Positions 29,984 through 37,376 of a stretch of 64,000 nt of DNA are shown piece after piece. Every line of letters starts with the position of its first letter. Position 1 is the first letter of the stretch. Both the position numbers and the translations under genes were made by a program. Under the pieces are notes generated by a model. That model searched no databases and was not told where the DNA came from. It worked only from the letters and a program-made list of their open reading frames with translations. Origin of the DNA: Paractinoplanes polyasparticus (GTDB taxonomy: Bacteria; Actinomycetota; Actinomycetes; Mycobacteriales; Micromonosporaceae); contig NZ_JAHWFK010000025.1 in NCBI RefSeq assembly GCF_019710575.1, positions 62,001 to 126,000 of the forward strand. The letters run 5' to 3'.

Positions 29984-32329
29984 GTGGAAGACCTTGGTGA
30001 GATCGTTGGCGAATTCCTCATGGAAAGCCACGAGAACCTGGACCAGATCGACCGTGACCTGGTGCAGCTCGAACAGGACCCGAATTCCCGCGATCTGATC
30101 TCACGCATCTTCCGGGCGATCCACACCATCAAGGGCACCAGCGGCTTCCTGGCCTTCGGTCGTCTCGAGAAGCTGGCTCACGCGGGTGAGTCGCTGCTGT
30201 CGAAGCTGCGCGACGGGGTCATGCCGGTCACCCCGACGACCATCACCACGCTGCTCGCCACCATCGACGGTGTGCGCTCGATCCTGGCCAACATCGAGGA
30301 GACCCAGGCCGAGGGCGACGTCGACATCGACAGCATCATCGCGCAGGTCAACGCCCAGATGAAGGCCGGTGAGGCGGCGCCGCCGGCGGCCGAGGCGCCC
30401 GCTGCGGAGGCGGCCGAGGCGCCGCAGCCGCTCGACGAGACGCCCGCGCGCCCGACCCCCGAGCCGGTCGAGAACCAGCGCCGGCCGATCGGCGAGATCC
30501 TGGTCGAGACGGGCGCCGCCCAGGCCCAGGACGTCGGTTCGGCCCTGGCCCAGCAGATCGAGGGCGACGAGCGCAAGCTCGGCACGATCCTGCTCGAGGA
30601 GGGCAAGGCGCAGCCGGCCGCGGTCAGCGAGGCGCTACAGGCCCAGGCGCCCAAGCGCAGCATCGCCGACAGCGCCATCCGGGTCGACGTCGATCTGCTC
30701 GACACGCTGCTGAACATGGTGGGCGAGCTGGTGCTGGCCCGTAACCAGCTGGTGCGGGGCGTGATGGAGATCGGCGACACGACGCTGGTGCGCAGCGCAC
30801 AGCGGCTCGGCATGATCACCAGCGAGCTGCAAGAGGGCATCATGAAGACCCGGATGCAGCCCATCGAGCACATCTGGTCGAAGCTGCCCCGGGTCGTCCG
30901 GGACCTGAGCAACGGCCTCGGCAAGCAGGTCCAGCTGGTCATGCAGGGTAAGGACACCGAGCTCGACCGAAGCCTGCTGGAGGCGGTGAAGGACCCGCTG
31001 ACCCACCTGGTGCGCAACGCGGTCGACCACGGCATCGAGGAACCGGACCAGCGGATCGCGTCGGGCAAGGGTCCCGAGGGAACGCTGACGCTGCGCGCCT
31101 ATCACGAGGGCGGGCACGTGGCGGTCGAGGTCGCCGACGACGGCGCCGGCCTGAACGTGGACCGGATCGCGCAGAAGGCGGTCGAGAACGGGCTGCTGCG
31201 TCCCGACCAGGTGCCCAACATGGACCGTCGCGACATCATGGCGATGGTCTTCCAGCCCGGGTTCTCCACCGCCGCCAAGGTGACCAACGTGTCCGGCCGC
31301 GGTGTGGGCATGGACGTCGTGAAGACCAACATCGAGAACATCGGCGGCGCGGTCAGCGTCGACTCCACGCCCGGCGAGGGCACGGTCTGGCGGCTGACCA
31401 TCCCGCTGACGCTGGCCATCATCCAGGCCCTCACCGTCGACTGTGGTGACCAGCGGTACGTGGTGCCGCAGGTCGCGGTGCTCGAGCTGGTCTTCATCGA
31501 CGGGCAATCCACCAAGATCGAGTACGCCTCGGGCGCACCCGTCTACCGCCTGCGCGGCAAGCTGCTCCCGCTGGTGCGGCTCGACCGCGCGCTCGGCCTC
31601 GACGTGGGGGCCGACGAGGGCGTGTACATCATGGTGCTGCAGGCCGACGGCCGCCGGTTCGGCCTGGTCGTCGACCGGGTGCTGAACACCGAGGAGGTCG
31701 TGGTCAAGGCGCTCAACAGCCGGTTCAAGGACATCGGGCTCTACGCCGGGGCCACCATCCTCGGCGACGGCAAGGTGGGCCTGATCCTCGACGTCTCGTC
31801 GCTGGCCCGGCGCAGTCACCTCACCGCGGACGCCGAGCGGCAGAACCTGGAGGCCTCGGCGCGAGCCGGGAAGGGCGCCGGATCGGGCGAACGGCTGCTG
31901 GTCACGGCGGTCGGCGAGCGTCGGGTGGCGATTCCGCTCGACACCGTCACCCGGCTCGAGGAGTTCCCGCGCAAACGCATCGAGCACGCCGGCTCCCGCG
32001 AGGTGGTGCAGTACCGCGGGCAGATCTTGCCCTTGGTGCGGCTGTCGCACCTGCTCGGGGCGTACGGCGAGGAGCCTGAGGGCGACACCGTGTCGGTGGT
32101 CGTCTACAGCGAGGGCGCCCGCAGCGTGGCCCTGGTCGTCGATCGGATCGTGGACATCGCCGAGAACTCGACGACCGCCCGCCGGGACGCCGAGGAGGAC
32201 GGCCTGGTCGGCACCGCGGTCATCCAGCAGCGGGTGACCGAGTTGCTGGACGTGCGCCGGGCGATCCTCGCGGCCGATCCGAACTTCTACACCGACCTGG
32301 AAAACGACGAGTTGCTGGTGGAGGCCTGA
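29984..32329 (+). CDS. cheA: CheA chemotaxis histidine kinase with an MshEN-like repeat pair
   Basis: 781 residues. HPt domain at 1-105 with phospho-acceptor His47 (FRAIHTIKGTSGFL); an Ala/Pro-rich linker (about 130-165); two 24-residue repeats at 168-191 and 198-221 beginning PIGEILVETG and KLGTILLEEG; dimerisation (about 230-300, LLNMVGELVLARNQL); ATPase (about 330-480, with LVRNAVDHGIE, DDGAGL and GRGVGMDVV); and two CheW-like regions (about 485-620 and 640-770). Standard CheY-binding P2 is not recognisable; the repeats take its place. Two CheW-like domains are more than in E. coli CheA. GTG 29984 follows GGAGG. Confidence 0.94.
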   Translation: MEDLGEIVGEFLMESHENLDQIDRDLVQLEQDPNSRDLISRIFRAIHTIKGTSGFLAFGRLEKLAHAGESLLSKLRDGVMPVTPTTITTLLATIDGVRSILANIEETQAEGDVDIDSIIAQVNAQMKAGEAAPPAAEAPAAEAAEAPQPLDETPARPTPEPVENQRRPIGEILVETGAAQAQDVGSALAQQIEGDERKLGTILLEEGKAQPAAVSEALQAQAPKRSIADSAIRVDVDLLDTLLNMVGELVLARNQLVRGVMEIGDTTLVRSAQRLGMITSELQEGIMKTRMQPIEHIWSKLPRVVRDLSNGLGKQVQLVMQGKDTELDRSLLEAVKDPLTHLVRNAVDHGIEEPDQRIASGKGPEGTLTLRAYHEGGHVAVEVADDGAGLNVDRIAQKAVENGLLRPDQVPNMDRRDIMAMVFQPGFSTAAKVTNVSGRGVGMDVVKTNIENIGGAVSVDSTPGEGTVWRLTIPLTLAIIQALTVDCGDQRYVVPQVAVLELVFIDGQSTKIEYASGAPVYRLRGKLLPLVRLDRALGLDVGADEGVYIMVLQADGRRFGLVVDRVLNTEEVVVKALNSRFKDIGLYAGATILGDGKVGLILDVSSLARRSHLTADAERQNLEASARAGKGAGSGERLLVTAVGERRVAIPLDTVTRLEEFPRKRIEHAGSREVVQYRGQILPLVRLSHLLGAYGEEPEGDTVSVVVYSEGARSVALVVDRIVDIAENSTTARRDAEEDGLVGTAVIQQRVTELLDVRRAILAADPNFYTDLENDELLVEA

Positions 32330-32330
32330 G

Positions 32331-32768
32331 ATGCCGAGCCGACAGTTCGCCACGTTCGAGGTGGCCGGCCAGCTCTTCGGTGTCGAGGTGCACACGGTGC
32401 AGGAGGTGCTCTCGTACAACGAGTACACCCCCGTGCCGCTGGCGCCGCAGGCCATCGGCGGGCTGTTCAACCTGCGCGGTCAGGTGATCGCCGCGGTTGA
32501 TCTGCGGGTGCAGCTCGGCATGGCCCGAAAGGCGCTCGAGGGTCCGGTGATGAACGTGATCCTGCGCGGCGACGGCGAGCCCGTGAGCCTGGTCGTGGAC
32601 CGGATCGGCGAGGTGGTCGACCTCGACGACGACACGTTCGAGCCGCCGCCGGACACGCTCAGCGGACCGACCCGGGAGCTCGTCGTGGGGACGTTCAAGC
32701 TGGACGGCCGGCTGATGCTGGCCCTCGACGTCAACCAGGCCGTCGACACGCAGCGCGCTACCACCTGA
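32331..32768 (+). CDS. cheW: CheW chemotaxis coupling protein
   Basis: 145 residues, one CheW domain: FATFEVAGQLFGVEVHTVQEVL at the start, IGGLFNLRGQVIAAVDLR near 44 and VSLVVDRIGEVVDLDDD near 84. It links receptors to CheA. It begins 1 base after the cheA stop and its TGA overlaps the next ATG, so the cluster is tightly coupled. No receptor (MCP) gene lies in the window. Confidence 0.93.
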   Translation: MPSRQFATFEVAGQLFGVEVHTVQEVLSYNEYTPVPLAPQAIGGLFNLRGQVIAAVDLRVQLGMARKALEGPVMNVILRGDGEPVSLVVDRIGEVVDLDDDTFEPPPDTLSGPTRELVVGTFKLDGRLMLALDVNQAVDTQRATT

Positions 32769-33640
32769 TGTACAGCCTCGTCAGCGCCCCGGTGCTCGGC
32801 TTCGACCTGACCCGCCTCACCGGCGGGTCGGCCACGGCCGAGGTGATGCTGCGCGGACTCCGCCTCCAGGCCGCCGACCTGCCGGTGCTCGCCGACCGGC
32901 TGCCGGACGAGGGGGTCCGTGGCCCGCTCTGGGTCGAGGTGGAGAGCGCCGCCCGCCGGATGCCGTCGCTCAAGGGCCTCAACAAGGACGATGCGGCGGG
33001 CAGCCTGGCCCTGGTCGAGCGCGCCCCCATCGGCACCGTCGACTCGCTGCTCACGTGTCTCCGGTACGACGTGATGGCGTGGACCTGGACGGGCACCGGG
33101 CGCGACGCGACGCAGACCGAGGTGGCAGCGTCCGCGACCGCGCTGCTGTGCGATGCCGCCGTCGCCAGTTACCTGCGCGAGGTGCTCGACGCCGACACGC
33201 GTCGCGGCCTCGGCGCGGGCTGGGTCGCGGCCATGCGCAAGCTGCCGACCGGCGCCCCGATCGACCTCGGTCCGCACCACTACACGGTCTCCGCCCTGCT
33301 CGACCGGCTGCGCTCGCTGCGATCAAGCGACCTGAGCCGGCTCCTCGCCTCGGCCGAGGACTCCCGCCGCAACGCCGGCGGCTGGTCACCGGCCGTGCAT
33401 TCGGCATCCTGGGCGGCTTATCTGTCGGATCGGGTCCGCACGGCCGCCGCAGCACAGATGCTGTTGGTGCAGGCCGTCGACACGGCCGCCATTCCGTTGG
33501 CCGACCGGGCCGGCGGTGTCTGGAACATGCTCAGCGGTGCGGTGCAGGCACTGGTCGTACGCGACCTGCTGGACACCTCGACCGCCCATCGGCTGCTCGC
33601 CCCGGTGGTTGCGGCCCTCGGCCCCGCGTGGCTCGGGTAA
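32768..33640 (+). CDS. Unrecognised 290-residue protein inside the che operon
   Basis: The ATG overlaps the cheW stop (TGATG) and cheB follows 13 bases after the stop, so it is expressed with the chemotaxis genes. The protein is mainly helical, Ala/Leu-rich, without membrane spans, signal peptide, cysteine clusters or receiver-like motifs. A basic, Ser/Arg-rich stretch lies near 172-200 (LRSLRSSDLSRLL). I recognise no family. It is not CheC, CheD, CheZ or CheV by any visible motif. It could be a phosphatase, adaptor or localisation factor specific to these bacteria. Confidence 0.75.
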   Translation: MYSLVSAPVLGFDLTRLTGGSATAEVMLRGLRLQAADLPVLADRLPDEGVRGPLWVEVESAARRMPSLKGLNKDDAAGSLALVERAPIGTVDSLLTCLRYDVMAWTWTGTGRDATQTEVAASATALLCDAAVASYLREVLDADTRRGLGAGWVAAMRKLPTGAPIDLGPHHYTVSALLDRLRSLRSSDLSRLLASAEDSRRNAGGWSPAVHSASWAAYLSDRVRTAAAAQMLLVQAVDTAAIPLADRAGGVWNMLSGAVQALVVRDLLDTSTAHRLLAPVVAALGPAWLG

Positions 33641-33653
33641 GGAAGGTGACCGG

Positions 33654-34805
33654 GTGATATCGGTCCTTGTCGTCGACGACTCGGTGGTCGTCCGTCGCTT
33701 GATCGTCGACGCTCTCGGTGGTGCCGAGAACATCGAGGTCGTGGGCACGGCGTCCAACGGGTTGCTGGCCCAGGCCAAGATCGACCAGCTCAAGCCCGAC
33801 GTGATCACGATGGACATCGAGATGCCCCAGATGGACGGCATCACCGCGGTCCGCGAGCTGCGCAAGCGGCACAAGCAGATCCCGGTGATCATGTTCAGCA
33901 CGCTGTCGGCCGCGGGCGCCTCGGCCACGCTGGAGGCGCTCTCGGCCGGCGCGACCGACTACGTGACCAAGCCGAGCAACACCGGCAGCGTCGAGCAGTC
34001 GATCAAGGCGGTCCGGGACGAGCTCGTCCCCAAGATCTACGCGCTGGCGGGCAAACGCCGGCCGAGCGCGACACCGGCTGCTCCGACCCGCCCCGGCGCG
34101 GCCCCGCACCGGGTCGGCCTGCCGCCCACCGGTCCGGGCCGTCCGCCCGCCGGGCCGCCCAGCTCCGCCCCGGTCCGGACGGCTCCGCGCCGCTCCGCGC
34201 CCGGCGGCCGCATCGACATCCTGGCCATCGGCTCTTCGACCGGCGGTCCGGACGCGCTGACCAAGGTGTTGAGCGGCATTCCGGCCGACATCCCGGTGCC
34301 GATCGTCATCACCCAGCACATGCCGCCCGTCTTCACCAAGATGTTCGCCGAACGGCTGGACCGCAGCACGCCGCTGCGGGTGGTCGAGGCCGGCGACGGC
34401 ATGGAGCTGACGGCCGGGTGGGCCTACGTCGCACCCGGCGACCAGCACCTGGTGCTGCACCGCCGGGGGACGGCCACGCTGACCCAGCTGAGCGGTGCGC
34501 CGCCCGAGAACTCCTGCCGCCCCGCCGTGGATGTCATGTTCCGGTCGGTCGCGGCACTGTACGGCGGCTCCGCGTACGCGACCGTGCTGACCGGAATGGG
34601 ACACGACGGAAGAGGTGGCGCGAAGGTGCTGAGGGACGCGGGCGCCGAGGTGCTGGCCCAGGACGAGGCCACCTCGGTGGTGTGGGGCATGCCGGGCGCC
34701 GTGGTCGGCGCGGGGCTGGCGGACGAGATCCTGCCGCTCGACCGGATCGCCGCCCATCTGGTGGGCCGGGTCAAGGCCGGACGCTCGGCGGCGGTGGCCC
34801 GATGA
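33654..34805 (+). CDS. cheB: CheB protein-glutamate methylesterase
   Basis: 383 residues: receiver (1-120) with Asp8, Asp9 and phospho-acceptor Asp54, a Pro/Arg-rich linker (about 135-180), and the methylesterase domain (about 185-375). The catalytic triad is visible: Ser195 in GSSTGG, His222 in TQHMPP, Asp318 in GMGHDG. It demethylates and deamidates receptors. GTG 33654 follows GGAAGG. Its stop overlaps the cheR start (ATGA). Confidence 0.94.
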   Translation: MISVLVVDDSVVVRRLIVDALGGAENIEVVGTASNGLLAQAKIDQLKPDVITMDIEMPQMDGITAVRELRKRHKQIPVIMFSTLSAAGASATLEALSAGATDYVTKPSNTGSVEQSIKAVRDELVPKIYALAGKRRPSATPAAPTRPGAAPHRVGLPPTGPGRPPAGPPSSAPVRTAPRRSAPGGRIDILAIGSSTGGPDALTKVLSGIPADIPVPIVITQHMPPVFTKMFAERLDRSTPLRVVEAGDGMELTAGWAYVAPGDQHLVLHRRGTATLTQLSGAPPENSCRPAVDVMFRSVAALYGGSAYATVLTGMGHDGRGGAKVLRDAGAEVLAQDEATSVVWGMPGAVVGAGLADEILPLDRIAAHLVGRVKAGRSAAVAR

Positions 34806-35647
34806 CGCTGTCGCAGGCCGAGTTCAACTTCGTGTCCCAGCTCGTACGGCGTGAGGCCTCGATCGTGCTGGCTCCCGGAAAGGAGTATCTGGTCGAGGCG
34901 CGGCTCATTCCGGTGGCCCGCGCGGTCGGGGCGGCCGGGGTCAGCGAGTTCCTGGCCGACCTGCAGCGCCGGCCCGACCCGGCCAAGCAGCGCAAGATCA
35001 TCGACGCCCTGACCACGAACGAGACCTCCTGGTTCCGGGATCGGGAGCCGTTCGCGGCGCTCACCGATGTCGTGCTGCCGGAGCTGGTCAAGTCGCGGGC
35101 GTCGGCCCGCAAGGTGCGGGTGTGGTCGGCCGCGAGCTCCAGCGGCCAGGAGGCGTACAGCCTGGCCATCACGATGCAGGAGACGCTGCCGCCCGGCTGG
35201 TCCTACGACATCATGGGCACCGACATCTCGACCGAGATGGTCAAGCGGGCCGAGACGGCCGAGTACAGCCAGGTCGAGGTGAACCGCGGTCTGCCCGCGG
35301 CCCAGTTGGTGCAGTACTTCGAACGGGCCGGGGCGCACTGGCGGATCGCTCCGGCGCTGCGCCGCAACGTCTCGTTCCGCCTGATGAACCTCACCGCGCC
35401 GCTGCCGGTCATGCAGCCGTTCGACGTGATCTTCCTGCGCAACGTCCTGATCTATTTCGACGTCGCCACCAAGCGTCAGGTGCTGCAGAACGTGGCCAAG
35501 CTGCTGCGGCCGGACGGCTGGCTCTTCCTGGGCGCGGCCGAGACCACGATCGGGATCGACGACAACTACGAGCGGGTGGCCGCCGGCCGCACCTCCGCCT
35601 ACCGAGTCCGTACCGGGGCGCCCGCGGGCGCCATGAGAAGGGGATGA
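34802..35647 (+). CDS. cheR: CheR chemotaxis methyltransferase
   Basis: 281 residues. N-terminal helical domain, then a SAM-binding Rossmann domain: TNETSWFRDREPF near 71, VWSAASSSGQEAYSLAI near 106 and the DVIFLRNVLIYFD near 209 are family hallmarks. It methylates receptor glutamates and opposes CheB. Translationally coupled to cheB by ATGA. Confidence 0.94.
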   Translation: MTLSQAEFNFVSQLVRREASIVLAPGKEYLVEARLIPVARAVGAAGVSEFLADLQRRPDPAKQRKIIDALTTNETSWFRDREPFAALTDVVLPELVKSRASARKVRVWSAASSSGQEAYSLAITMQETLPPGWSYDIMGTDISTEMVKRAETAEYSQVEVNRGLPAAQLVQYFERAGAHWRIAPALRRNVSFRLMNLTAPLPVMQPFDVIFLRNVLIYFDVATKRQVLQNVAKLLRPDGWLFLGAAETTIGIDDNYERVAAGRTSAYRVRTGAPAGAMRRG

Positions 35648-35652
35648 CGCGG

Positions 35653-36039
35653 ATGCGCGCCATGGTGATCGACGACTCGCGGGCGATGCGCATGATCCTC
35701 AAGCGCATCGTCACCAAGCTGAATTTCGAGGCGGTGGAGGCGGGCGACGGCAAGGAGGCGCTCGACCTGCTGACCGCGATGCCCGAGGTGCCGGAACTGG
35801 CCCTCATCGACTGGAACATGCCCAACATGAACGGGCTCGAGTTCGTCACGCACGTCCGGGCCGACCCACGCCTGCGCGAGATGACGCTGGTCATGGTCAC
35901 CACCGAGAGCGAACAGAGCCAGATCGTCCGGGCGCTCGCCGCGGGCGCCCACGAATACGTGATCAAGCCCTTCACCGAAGGAGCCATGATCGAGAAGCTG
36001 GCCCTGCTGGGCCTCGTCCCGACCGGAGCGAACTCATGA
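35653..36039 (+). CDS. cheY: CheY-like single-domain response regulator (first copy)
   Basis: 128 residues, a stand-alone receiver with Asp7-Asp8, phospho-acceptor Asp53 (LALIDWNMPNMNG), Thr in MVTTES and Lys in YVIKPF. I choose ATG 35653 because AGAAGGGG is 9 bases upstream; the ATG at 35644 overlaps the cheR stop but directly abuts that site. Either gives the same domain. Likely carries the CheA signal to the motor or acts as a phosphate sink. Confidence 0.9.
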   Translation: MRAMVIDDSRAMRMILKRIVTKLNFEAVEAGDGKEALDLLTAMPEVPELALIDWNMPNMNGLEFVTHVRADPRLREMTLVMVTTESEQSQIVRALAAGAHEYVIKPFTEGAMIEKLALLGLVPTGANS

Positions 36040-36521
36040 GCGTCGAAGTCGAGGTCAACGAGAACGACCTCGCCGAGATGGTGGAACAGGTCTGGGAGTC
36101 GTACCTGGATCCGGAGGGCGTGAGCCCCCTGATGCAGACCTACGACGAGAACCAGGCGTCCGAGGTGCATTCCTCCGTCTCCATCACCGGTTCCTGGACC
36201 GGGCACGTCGTCTACGCGTCCTCGCTGCCGGCGGCCCGCCGTGCCGCGGGCGCCTTTCTGGCCATGGGGCCGGAAGAGGTGAGCGAGGAGGACCTCTCCG
36301 ACGTGCTCGGCGAACTCGCGAACATCATCGGCGGAAACGTCAAGGCGATGCTGCCGCCCGGCGCGCTCCTGTCGCTACCGCAGGTGGTGCTCGCTCCCGA
36401 AGCGACGGCGCGCTACCCCAATGCCCACCGGATCACCGGGGTGTACGGGATCTGGGACGGCGAGCCGGTGTCAATTTCCATGTGGCAGAGCCGCGGAGAC
36501 AACAAGGAGGGCGCGGAATGA
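36036..36521 (+). CDS. cheX: CheX-like CheY-P phosphatase
   Basis: 161 residues with the phosphatase motif ExxN...GN as Glu93, Asn96 and Asn101 in GELANIIGGNVK. CheX/CheC proteins dephosphorylate CheY-P through these residues. Beta strands flank the helix as in the family. It lies between two CheY genes and overlaps both neighbours by ATGA. Confidence 0.85.
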   Translation: MSVEVEVNENDLAEMVEQVWESYLDPEGVSPLMQTYDENQASEVHSSVSITGSWTGHVVYASSLPAARRAAGAFLAMGPEEVSEEDLSDVLGELANIIGGNVKAMLPPGALLSLPQVVLAPEATARYPNAHRITGVYGIWDGEPVSISMWQSRGDNKEGAE

Positions 36522-36880
36522 AGATTCTCATCGCTGACGACAGCCGGGTGATGCGGCAGATCGTGATCCGCACCCTGCGTCAGGCCGGGTTCGGCGACCA
36601 CGAGCTGATCGAGGCGGCCAACGGTCGCGAGGCCGTGGAGCTGACCAAGTCGGAGAGCCCGGATCTGGTGCTCTCGGACTGGAACATGCCCGAGATGTCG
36701 GGCATCGAGGCGCTGCGCCAACTGCGCGCAGCCGGTAACGACGTCAAGTTCGGTTTTGTGACGTCCGAGAGCACGGACGAGATGAAGGAACAGGCTGAGG
36801 CGGCCGGTGCTCTCTTTTTCATCGTCAAGCCGTTCTCGGCTGAACGATTCGATGAGGTCTTCGCTCCTATTCTGGGATGA
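36518..36880 (+). CDS. cheY: CheY-like single-domain response regulator (second copy)
   Basis: 120 residues with Asp7-Asp8, phospho-acceptor Asp54 (LVLSDWNMPEMSG), Thr/Ser in VTSEST and Lys in FIVKPF. It differs clearly from the first CheY over most of its length, so the two are probably specialised (one for the motor, one as a sink). Start overlaps the cheX stop. Confidence 0.9.
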   Translation: MKILIADDSRVMRQIVIRTLRQAGFGDHELIEAANGREAVELTKSESPDLVLSDWNMPEMSGIEALRQLRAAGNDVKFGFVTSESTDEMKEQAEAAGALFFIVKPFSAERFDEVFAPILG

Positions 36881-36887
36881 TTACGAC

Positions 36888-37376
36888 ATGTCCGACGTCT
36901 CGCTCCTTCCTGGCACCCTGGCCGTTCGCAACCTCTTCGAGGATCTGCTCGGCCGGGAAGTGACCGTCAGCCCCGGCGAACCCATCAGCGCAGATGAGGT
37001 CGCCACCTCGACGGTCGCCCTTTTCACCGATCCCGCACAGAACCTCTTCGCCGTCCTCGGCATGGATCTCAAGCTGGCGGCCAACGCCGGCGCCGCGCTC
37101 GGCCTGCTTCCGGCCGGCGCTGCCGAGGACAGCATCGACGAGAAGCAGCTGTTCCCGAATCTCGCCGAGAACGTCGGCGAGCTCTGCAACGTGCTGACCA
37201 GCCTGCTCAACCGCGAGGGCAGCCCGCACATCAAGCTCCACCAGGTGGTCTACCCCGGCGACCCGCTGCCCGCCGACGCCCGGGCCCACCTGATGGCGCT
37301 CGGCCGCCGGGTCGACCTGCTGGTCGAGGTCAACCGGTACGGCAAGGGAAAGTTCAGCCTCTCCCTGGCGCCGTGA
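36888..37376 (+). CDS. Divergent CheX/CheC-like protein
   Basis: 162 residues. The sequence NLAENVGELCNVLTSLLN contains an ExxN (Glu98, Asn101) in the same setting as the CheX motif, and strand predictions around it resemble the CheX fold; the second Asn of the GN motif is replaced. It may be a weak phosphatase, an inactive partner, or a CheX-fold adaptor. Last gene of the che operon, directly before a strong terminator. The family assignment rests on this local match. Confidence 0.6.
   Translation: MSDVSLLPGTLAVRNLFEDLLGREVTVSPGEPISADEVATSTVALFTDPAQNLFAVLGMDLKLAANAGAALGLLPAGAAEDSIDEKQLFPNLAENVGELCNVLTSLLNREGSPHIKLHQVVYPGDPLPADARAHLMALGRRVDLLVEVNRYGKGKFSLSLAP

Follow-up and report, generated by a model that had tools for sequence, protein, structure and literature searches.

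In the pilus ATPase MshE of Vibrio cholerae (PDB 5HTL), the MshEN_N subdomain is described as two 24-residue motifs joined by a short, non-conserved spacer of five residues (PMC5013675). Each motif has Gly at positions 3 and 10, hydrophobic contacts at positions 2, 17 and 21, and Gln at position 24. The strict form of the motif starts with Arg, while a relaxed form, with 11 fixed positions per unit, allows R, K, P or N at that place (PMC5013675). Wang et al. 2016, who assayed several intact proteins, also list CheA among the MshEN-associated proteins, the same pairing of cassette and kinase as the one reported here, although their main text names CheA once, with no organism, position or binding attached (PMC5013675). 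Chemotaxis is again given as an MshEN setting in the introduction of a study (PMC8669469) in which E. coli NfrB is described as an enzyme with a directly fused MshEN that binds c-di-GMP.

The closest solved structure to the cassette described below is PilF of Thermus thermophilus, another pilus ATPase, at motifs II and III of its GSPII-C domain, where the aligned motif starts with Pro. Both GSPII-B and GSPII-C of PilF bind c-di-GMP (PMC11731258), whereas GSPII-A adopts an MshEN-like fold and yet does not bind it (PMC12002112). On the kinase side, the main text of a survey of CheA architectures (PMC10782961) makes no mention of MshEN, di-GMP, DUF4388, T2SSE, an unknown domain or Actino, and among the open-licence PMC papers listed in our searches, judged by title and start of abstract, none tests c-di-GMP binding by a CheA or describes the present cassette in Actinoplanes. 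The MshEN-CheA pairing is already known; what is new here, as read from the sequence, is a conserved arginine-free variant.

The CheA that we analysed is the main one of a soil actinomycete most closely related, among named organisms, to Paractinoplanes and Actinoplanes (97% with Paractinoplanes pyxinae and P. aksuensis), and it is encoded in a window of 64,000 nucleotides, the whole stretch of DNA under study (Table 1). Its gene is followed by cheW, a 290-aa ORF, cheB, cheR, a receiver gene at about 35662-36000, cheX, a second receiver gene, a 189-aa ORF, flgD and more flagellar genes. According to Pfam, the locus has the features of chemosensory class F5: the kinase has an additional CheW besides its HPt, dimerisation, HATPase and CheW domains, and the genes follow an A-W...B-R order. 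This class was defined in PMC10746217, which describes it as dominant in the later actinobacterial classes. The true start of cheB probably lies downstream of the ORF start, since its receiver begins only at ORF residue 50, and the same probably holds for cheR, where CheR_N is not reached until ORF residue 134. Between HPt and the dimerisation domain (P3) CheA has 131 residues, of which 125-167 are rich in Ala, Pro and Glu and 168-221 form the cassette.

Table 1. Features of the cheA locus, in window positions.
Feature	Position	Strand	Basis and remarks
cheA	29984..32329	+	single open frame, 781 aa; two CheW stretches, F5-like make-up
HPt (P1), CheA residues 6-98	29999..30277	+	Pfam PF01627, E 3e-14
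Ala/Pro/Glu-rich linker, CheA residues 125-167	30356..30484	+	sequence; length differs between relatives
Motif I, CheA residues 168-191	30485..30556	+	contacts P168, I169, G170, V184, L188, Q191; turn G177
Spacer, CheA residues 192-197 (IEGDER)	30557..30574	+	between motif I and motif II
Motif II, CheA residues 198-221	30575..30646	+	contacts K198, L199, G200, V214, L218, Q221; turn G207
H-kinase_dim (P3), CheA residues 230-289	30671..30850	+	Pfam PF02895, E 2e-15; 8 residues past motif II
HATPase_c (P4), CheA residues 336-476	30989..31411	+	Pfam PF02518
First CheW domain (P5), CheA residues 481-610	31424..31813	+	Pfam PF01584; second CheW stretch after
cheW	32331..32768	+	Pfam PF01584
290-aa ORF, cheW-cheB interval	32768-33640	+	no Pfam match at E <= 0.001
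cheB	33516..34805	+	Pfam PF01339 and PF00072
cheR	34418..35647	+	Pfam PF01739, PF03705
cheX	36036..36521	+	Pfam PF13690
cheY-like single receiver	36482..36880	+	Pfam PF00072
189-aa ORF, last receiver-flgD interval	36807-37376	+	start overlaps receiver ORF; no Pfam match at E <= 0.001

Motif I (PIGEILVETGAAQAQDVGSALAQQ) and motif II (KLGTILLEEGKAQPAAVSEALQAQ) are separated by six residues and identical at 11 of 24 positions, against at most nine identities in 20,000 shuffles of both units. Scored with the relaxed MshEN motif, they reach 11/11 and 10/11, respectively. Neither 2,000 shuffles of the complete CheA sequence (best 20) nor 20,000 in which region 125-231 alone was shuffled (best 19) attained this pair total of 21. 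A lone unit is less telling than the pair, since an unrelated stretch at CheA residue 597 also scores 10/11. The two 24-residue MshEN-like repeats, six residues apart, that had been proposed from the sequence are therefore real.

We built profiles from three alignments: A1 (21 CheA cassettes), A2 (the 13 F5-type cassettes only) and A3 (47 close orthologous segments, with the duplicates L086 and L119 left out). The NCBIfam model NF053729 (c-di-GMP_motif, "c-di-GMP-binding domain, MshE-related") aligns over all 53 of its positions both with the whole CheA (E 4.7e-7, 29.5 bits) and with a 64-residue segment of it (E 1.3e-8, 34.4 bits), neither of which reaches the curated cut-off of 38 bits. The model matches all 47 segments of A3 (best 1.4e-10), and seven of the ten A1 cassettes that were scored singly, out of 21, lie at or above the cut-off. 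These include L020 from another genus of the same family (41.1 bits) and L047 from elsewhere in the phylum (38.9 bits). When bits are summed over separately matched motifs, two cassettes with a one-residue spacer score 46.2 and 51.1, and three from the second CheA type 47.1, 49.1 and 48.8. Below the cut-off are the window CheA, L021 (37.4) and L051 (30.7).

Searches of the PDB place MshEN domains first with all three profiles. With A1, PilF was found at 3.3e-25 for the whole chain (2.9e-13 for the best single domain), PilB at about 1e-10 and MshE (5HTL) at 7e-10, the last also for the whole chain; with A2, the whole-chain values were 6e-19 for PilF and 2e-7 for MshE. A3, made of close orthologues only, retrieved a domain of PilF (6ejf, 7.5e-9) and the whole chain of MshE (0.009). 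A single-sequence phmmer search with the window segment returned only PilF chains below E 1 (6ejf domain, E 2.4e-5), the alignment starting Pro on Pro at PilF residue 335. The window CheA also gave weaker NCBIfam matches to NfrB and to a related glycosyltransferase model, as well as a sub-threshold match to Pfam DUF4388 (PF14332; 18.7 bits against a cut-off of 25), whose best stretch spans one motif only. DUF4388 matches 16 of the 21 cassettes, weakly, with E down to 1.3e-4.

Except for the first unit position, three contact leucines and the spacer, the cassette has the motif layout of MshEN_N of MshE: it has Pro/Lys instead of Arg/Arg at position 1, Ile or Val in place of three of the six contact Leu, and a spacer of six residues instead of five. 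MshEN_C is missing, since P3 begins eight residues after motif II and the Pfam scan of CheA gave no match to PF05157, the family for full MshEN with its C-terminal subdomain. The hosts differ as well: MshE is a pilus ATPase and ours a chemotaxis kinase, PilF GSPII-C comprises three motifs plus a C-terminal part, and NfrB is a glycosyltransferase with its MshEN cassette at the C terminus. Although PF05157 bears the name MshEN, in the one match of this genome it covers only what reads as the C-terminal subdomain. This would account for the failure of Pfam to pick up the cassette, and it makes this family unfit to judge the absence of a significant profile match. That single match is a pilus-type ATPase (L001, G000:C93) whose N-terminal part, by eye, lacks RLG...Q motifs, and which perhaps does not bind c-di-GMP, as far as its sequence may tell.

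AlphaFold, given the 47 close sequences, predicted the segment with a pLDDT of 85.6 and a pTM of 0.61 as three helices, with helices 2 and 3 fused. This single model, made from a narrow alignment, does not reproduce the four-helix bundle of MshEN_N and has no match in the PDB at E <= 0.001. The predicted fold is indeed unlike MshEN_N and counts against the assignment, but weakly, given the narrow alignment behind it.

One might then ask whether the repeat is a product of chance or composition, that is, Ala/Glu/Gln-rich helices unrelated to MshEN. Besides the AlphaFold model, the reversed-sequence control speaks in this direction, for in the PDB it reached whole-chain E-values down to 7e-6 on seven designed repeat proteins; whole-chain values consequently need caution wherever the target is repetitive, as PilF is. 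None of these seven has a stretch that passes alone, unlike the PilF match, and the same control has no NCBIfam match. Together with the 22,000 shuffles, none of which equals the pair, and with the first rank of MshEN domains for A1, A2 and A3, this makes a chance origin extremely improbable. We conclude that homology of residues 168-221 to c-di-GMP-binding MshEN domains is supported at the level of sequence. The resemblance in the original prediction thereby gains standing as homology, by the full-length NF053729 alignment and the matches to PilF, PilB and MshE, although that alignment scores 29.5-34.4 bits, under the cut-off.

Would such a cassette bind its ligand? The Arg of the strict motif is absent at position 1 of both units, where Pro168 and Lys198 are invariant in 47/47 distinct orthologous segments. 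On the other hand, both units keep Gly at position 3 (G170, G200) and Gln at position 24 (Q191, Q221), and they have hydrophobic residues at positions 2, 17 and 21 (I169, V184, L188; L199, V214, L218), of which only three of six are the Leu of the strict motif (L188, L199, L218). Isoleucine or valine at the other three contacts may lower the affinity. Across the 47 sequences, 10 of the 12 contact positions are invariant, compared with 15 of the remaining 42 within residues 168-221 (Fisher p 0.007, treating alignment columns as independent).

Published variants help to weigh these substitutions. In MshE, changes at Arg9 reportedly cost about fivefold at most, while the variants G11L and G40I are no longer stabilised by the ligand, and named changes of single conserved hydrophobic residues to Ala cost more than tenfold (PMC5013675). 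PilF GSPII-B, which has Lys and Leu at the Arg positions, binds c-di-GMP at 6 nM, and the authors accordingly widened the consensus at position 1 to R/K/L (PMC11731258). A KD of about 0.3-0.5 uM is ascribed to GSPII-C, whose sole stated deviation is Pro335 (PMC11731258); since this domain has three motifs, the proline perhaps forms no more than one side of the site. Since binders with Lys, Leu or Pro exist and the Arg9 changes in MshE are mild, Pro and Lys in CheA do not predict a loss of binding. The replacement of Arg by Pro and Lys pointed out earlier is confirmed, but the suggestion that binding may thereby be lost is weakened by GSPII-B and GSPII-C, which bind with Lys, Leu or Pro at such positions.

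The repeats had also been thought to replace the P2 region. A P2 family was not found in CheA by Pfam at E up to 1, a search run without a positive control for P2. However, three relatives that lack the cassette (L026, L030 and L117) have no Pfam P2 match either at E <= 0.001, like the five cassette carriers scanned alongside, and the replacement is not shown.

The P2 result bears on a different reading, in which the cassette is a degenerate MshEN_N that has lost c-di-GMP binding and serves for docking or spacing, for example by giving CheY, or some other response regulator, a place to land on a CheA that has no P2. Here PilF GSPII-A offers a precedent, for which a docking role was suggested (PMC12002112), and several traits of our cassette fit: its NF053729 score below the curated cut-off, the lost arginines and the altered leucines, the lack of a Pfam P2 match in its CheA, the continuous helix 2-3 of the AlphaFold model, and a Gly-Asp-x-Arg (GDxR) spacer that is invariant in 13/13 F5-type rows of A2, while the MshE spacer is described as non-conserved (PMC5013675). 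Against it, both key Gly and both Gln are retained along with the invariance of most contact positions, residues other than Arg are tolerated in c-di-GMP binders (PMC11731258), and cassette-less relatives without P2 imply that the cassette does not simply track a need for docking. We regard this reading as possible but the less probable one. Binding of c-di-GMP is, in our judgement, about evenly balanced: residues 168-221 may be an MshEN_N-type c-di-GMP-binding cassette without its C-terminal subdomain that tunes the flagellar F5-like CheA of Actinoplanes/Paractinoplanes.

Our genome comparison indicates how widely the cassette is spread. Its profile matches 88 of 354 genomes of the family, 67 from the same genus (the host included) and 21 from others; in several of the latter the match lies in a second CheA only, or in frames of about 600 aa, a length that does not fit CheA. 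All 67 same-genus genomes among the matches listed carry a cassette match, and none of that genus appears among the unmatched family genomes listed, with 246 further unmatched genomes beyond that listing. Judged by eye from the linkers, the cassette is present in 23 of 30 CheA loci of the family search (the seven without it come from some genera of the same family) and in 48 of 55 loci of the named scan, both counts leaning towards carriers because a whole CheA including the cassette was the query. In the named scan it is lacking from Spirillospora, Actinomadura, Sanguibacter, Jonesia and three Cellulomonas. Moreover, 20 of the 42 loci listed out of 44 (L032-L075, the window's own included) have a cassette, likewise judged by eye and distributed over three CheA types.

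The genome itself encodes a second CheA (L032, G000:C114:9500-13500) with its own cassette, which scores 46.6 bits summed over two motifs, above the NF053729 cut-off. It is more canonical, with Arg-Ile-Gly and Pro-Ile-Gly starts and a longer spacer. The CheAs of three other Actinomycetota genomes (L060, L061 and L066) have the same two motifs with one residue between them, and in a CheA on a plasmid of Microvirga lotononidis (L134) the stretch joining HPt to P3 contains a tandem repeat of another kind (LAYQVLER...SLDELERAF). One Actinoplanes-type CheA (L015, G143:C1) is recorded with a single in-frame TAA.

In several related genera the CheA has an Ala/Pro-rich linker instead of the cassette, and a quick tree of 80 CheA cores (44 with and 36 without cassette; L015 and L046 left out) requires six changes of presence, at least four of them forced by starred branches. 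The dN/dS of the cassette is 0.34, compared with 0.12 and 0.13 in the core domains (36 of 46 loci used). These three observations would suit a spacer that folds yet is nearly neutral in function, kept between HPt and P3 by descent and sporadically lost. The dN/dS is nevertheless well below 1, ligand-contact positions have more than their share of invariant residues, every same-genus genome listed has a match, and the same cassette turns up in three CheA types of the phylum that are separate from one another; we therefore consider a near-neutral spacer unlikely. The GDxR spacer common to the 13 F5-type rows suggests, as a feature of sequence, an old cassette that was lost repeatedly.

Assuming that the cassette does bind c-di-GMP, a route from ligand to kinase can be proposed. 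With 69 GGDEF and 43 EAL matches in the genome, c-di-GMP is very probably in play in the host. The cassette would bind one c-di-GMP between its two helical hairpins, with an affinity that is probably sub-micromolar to micromolar, and the ligand would pin both hairpins together beside P3. Since eight residues separate the cassette from P3 and a linker from HPt that looks flexible precedes it, binding would tighten the HPt-P3 region and alter the ease with which HPt gets to the kinase core of the CheA dimer, an effect that could go in either direction. In this way c-di-GMP may tune the output of CheA during the switch from mycelium to zoospore.

Described inputs of c-di-GMP into chemotaxis include PilZ receptors, CheR-binding adaptors, CheY-like proteins and motor brakes. 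We tentatively propose, with somewhat less confidence than we attach to c-di-GMP binding by the cassette, that in zoospore-forming Actinoplanes c-di-GMP acts directly on the flagellar CheA and sets its activity through an arginine-free MshEN_N cassette beside the dimer interface, and that this cassette is old in Actinomycetota and was repeatedly lost. The conserved Pro/Lys variant is also relevant to the question of how loose the MshEN consensus may be. If our proposal is true, the second messenger would enter chemotaxis at the kinase itself, and not at the receptor, CheR, CheY or the motor.
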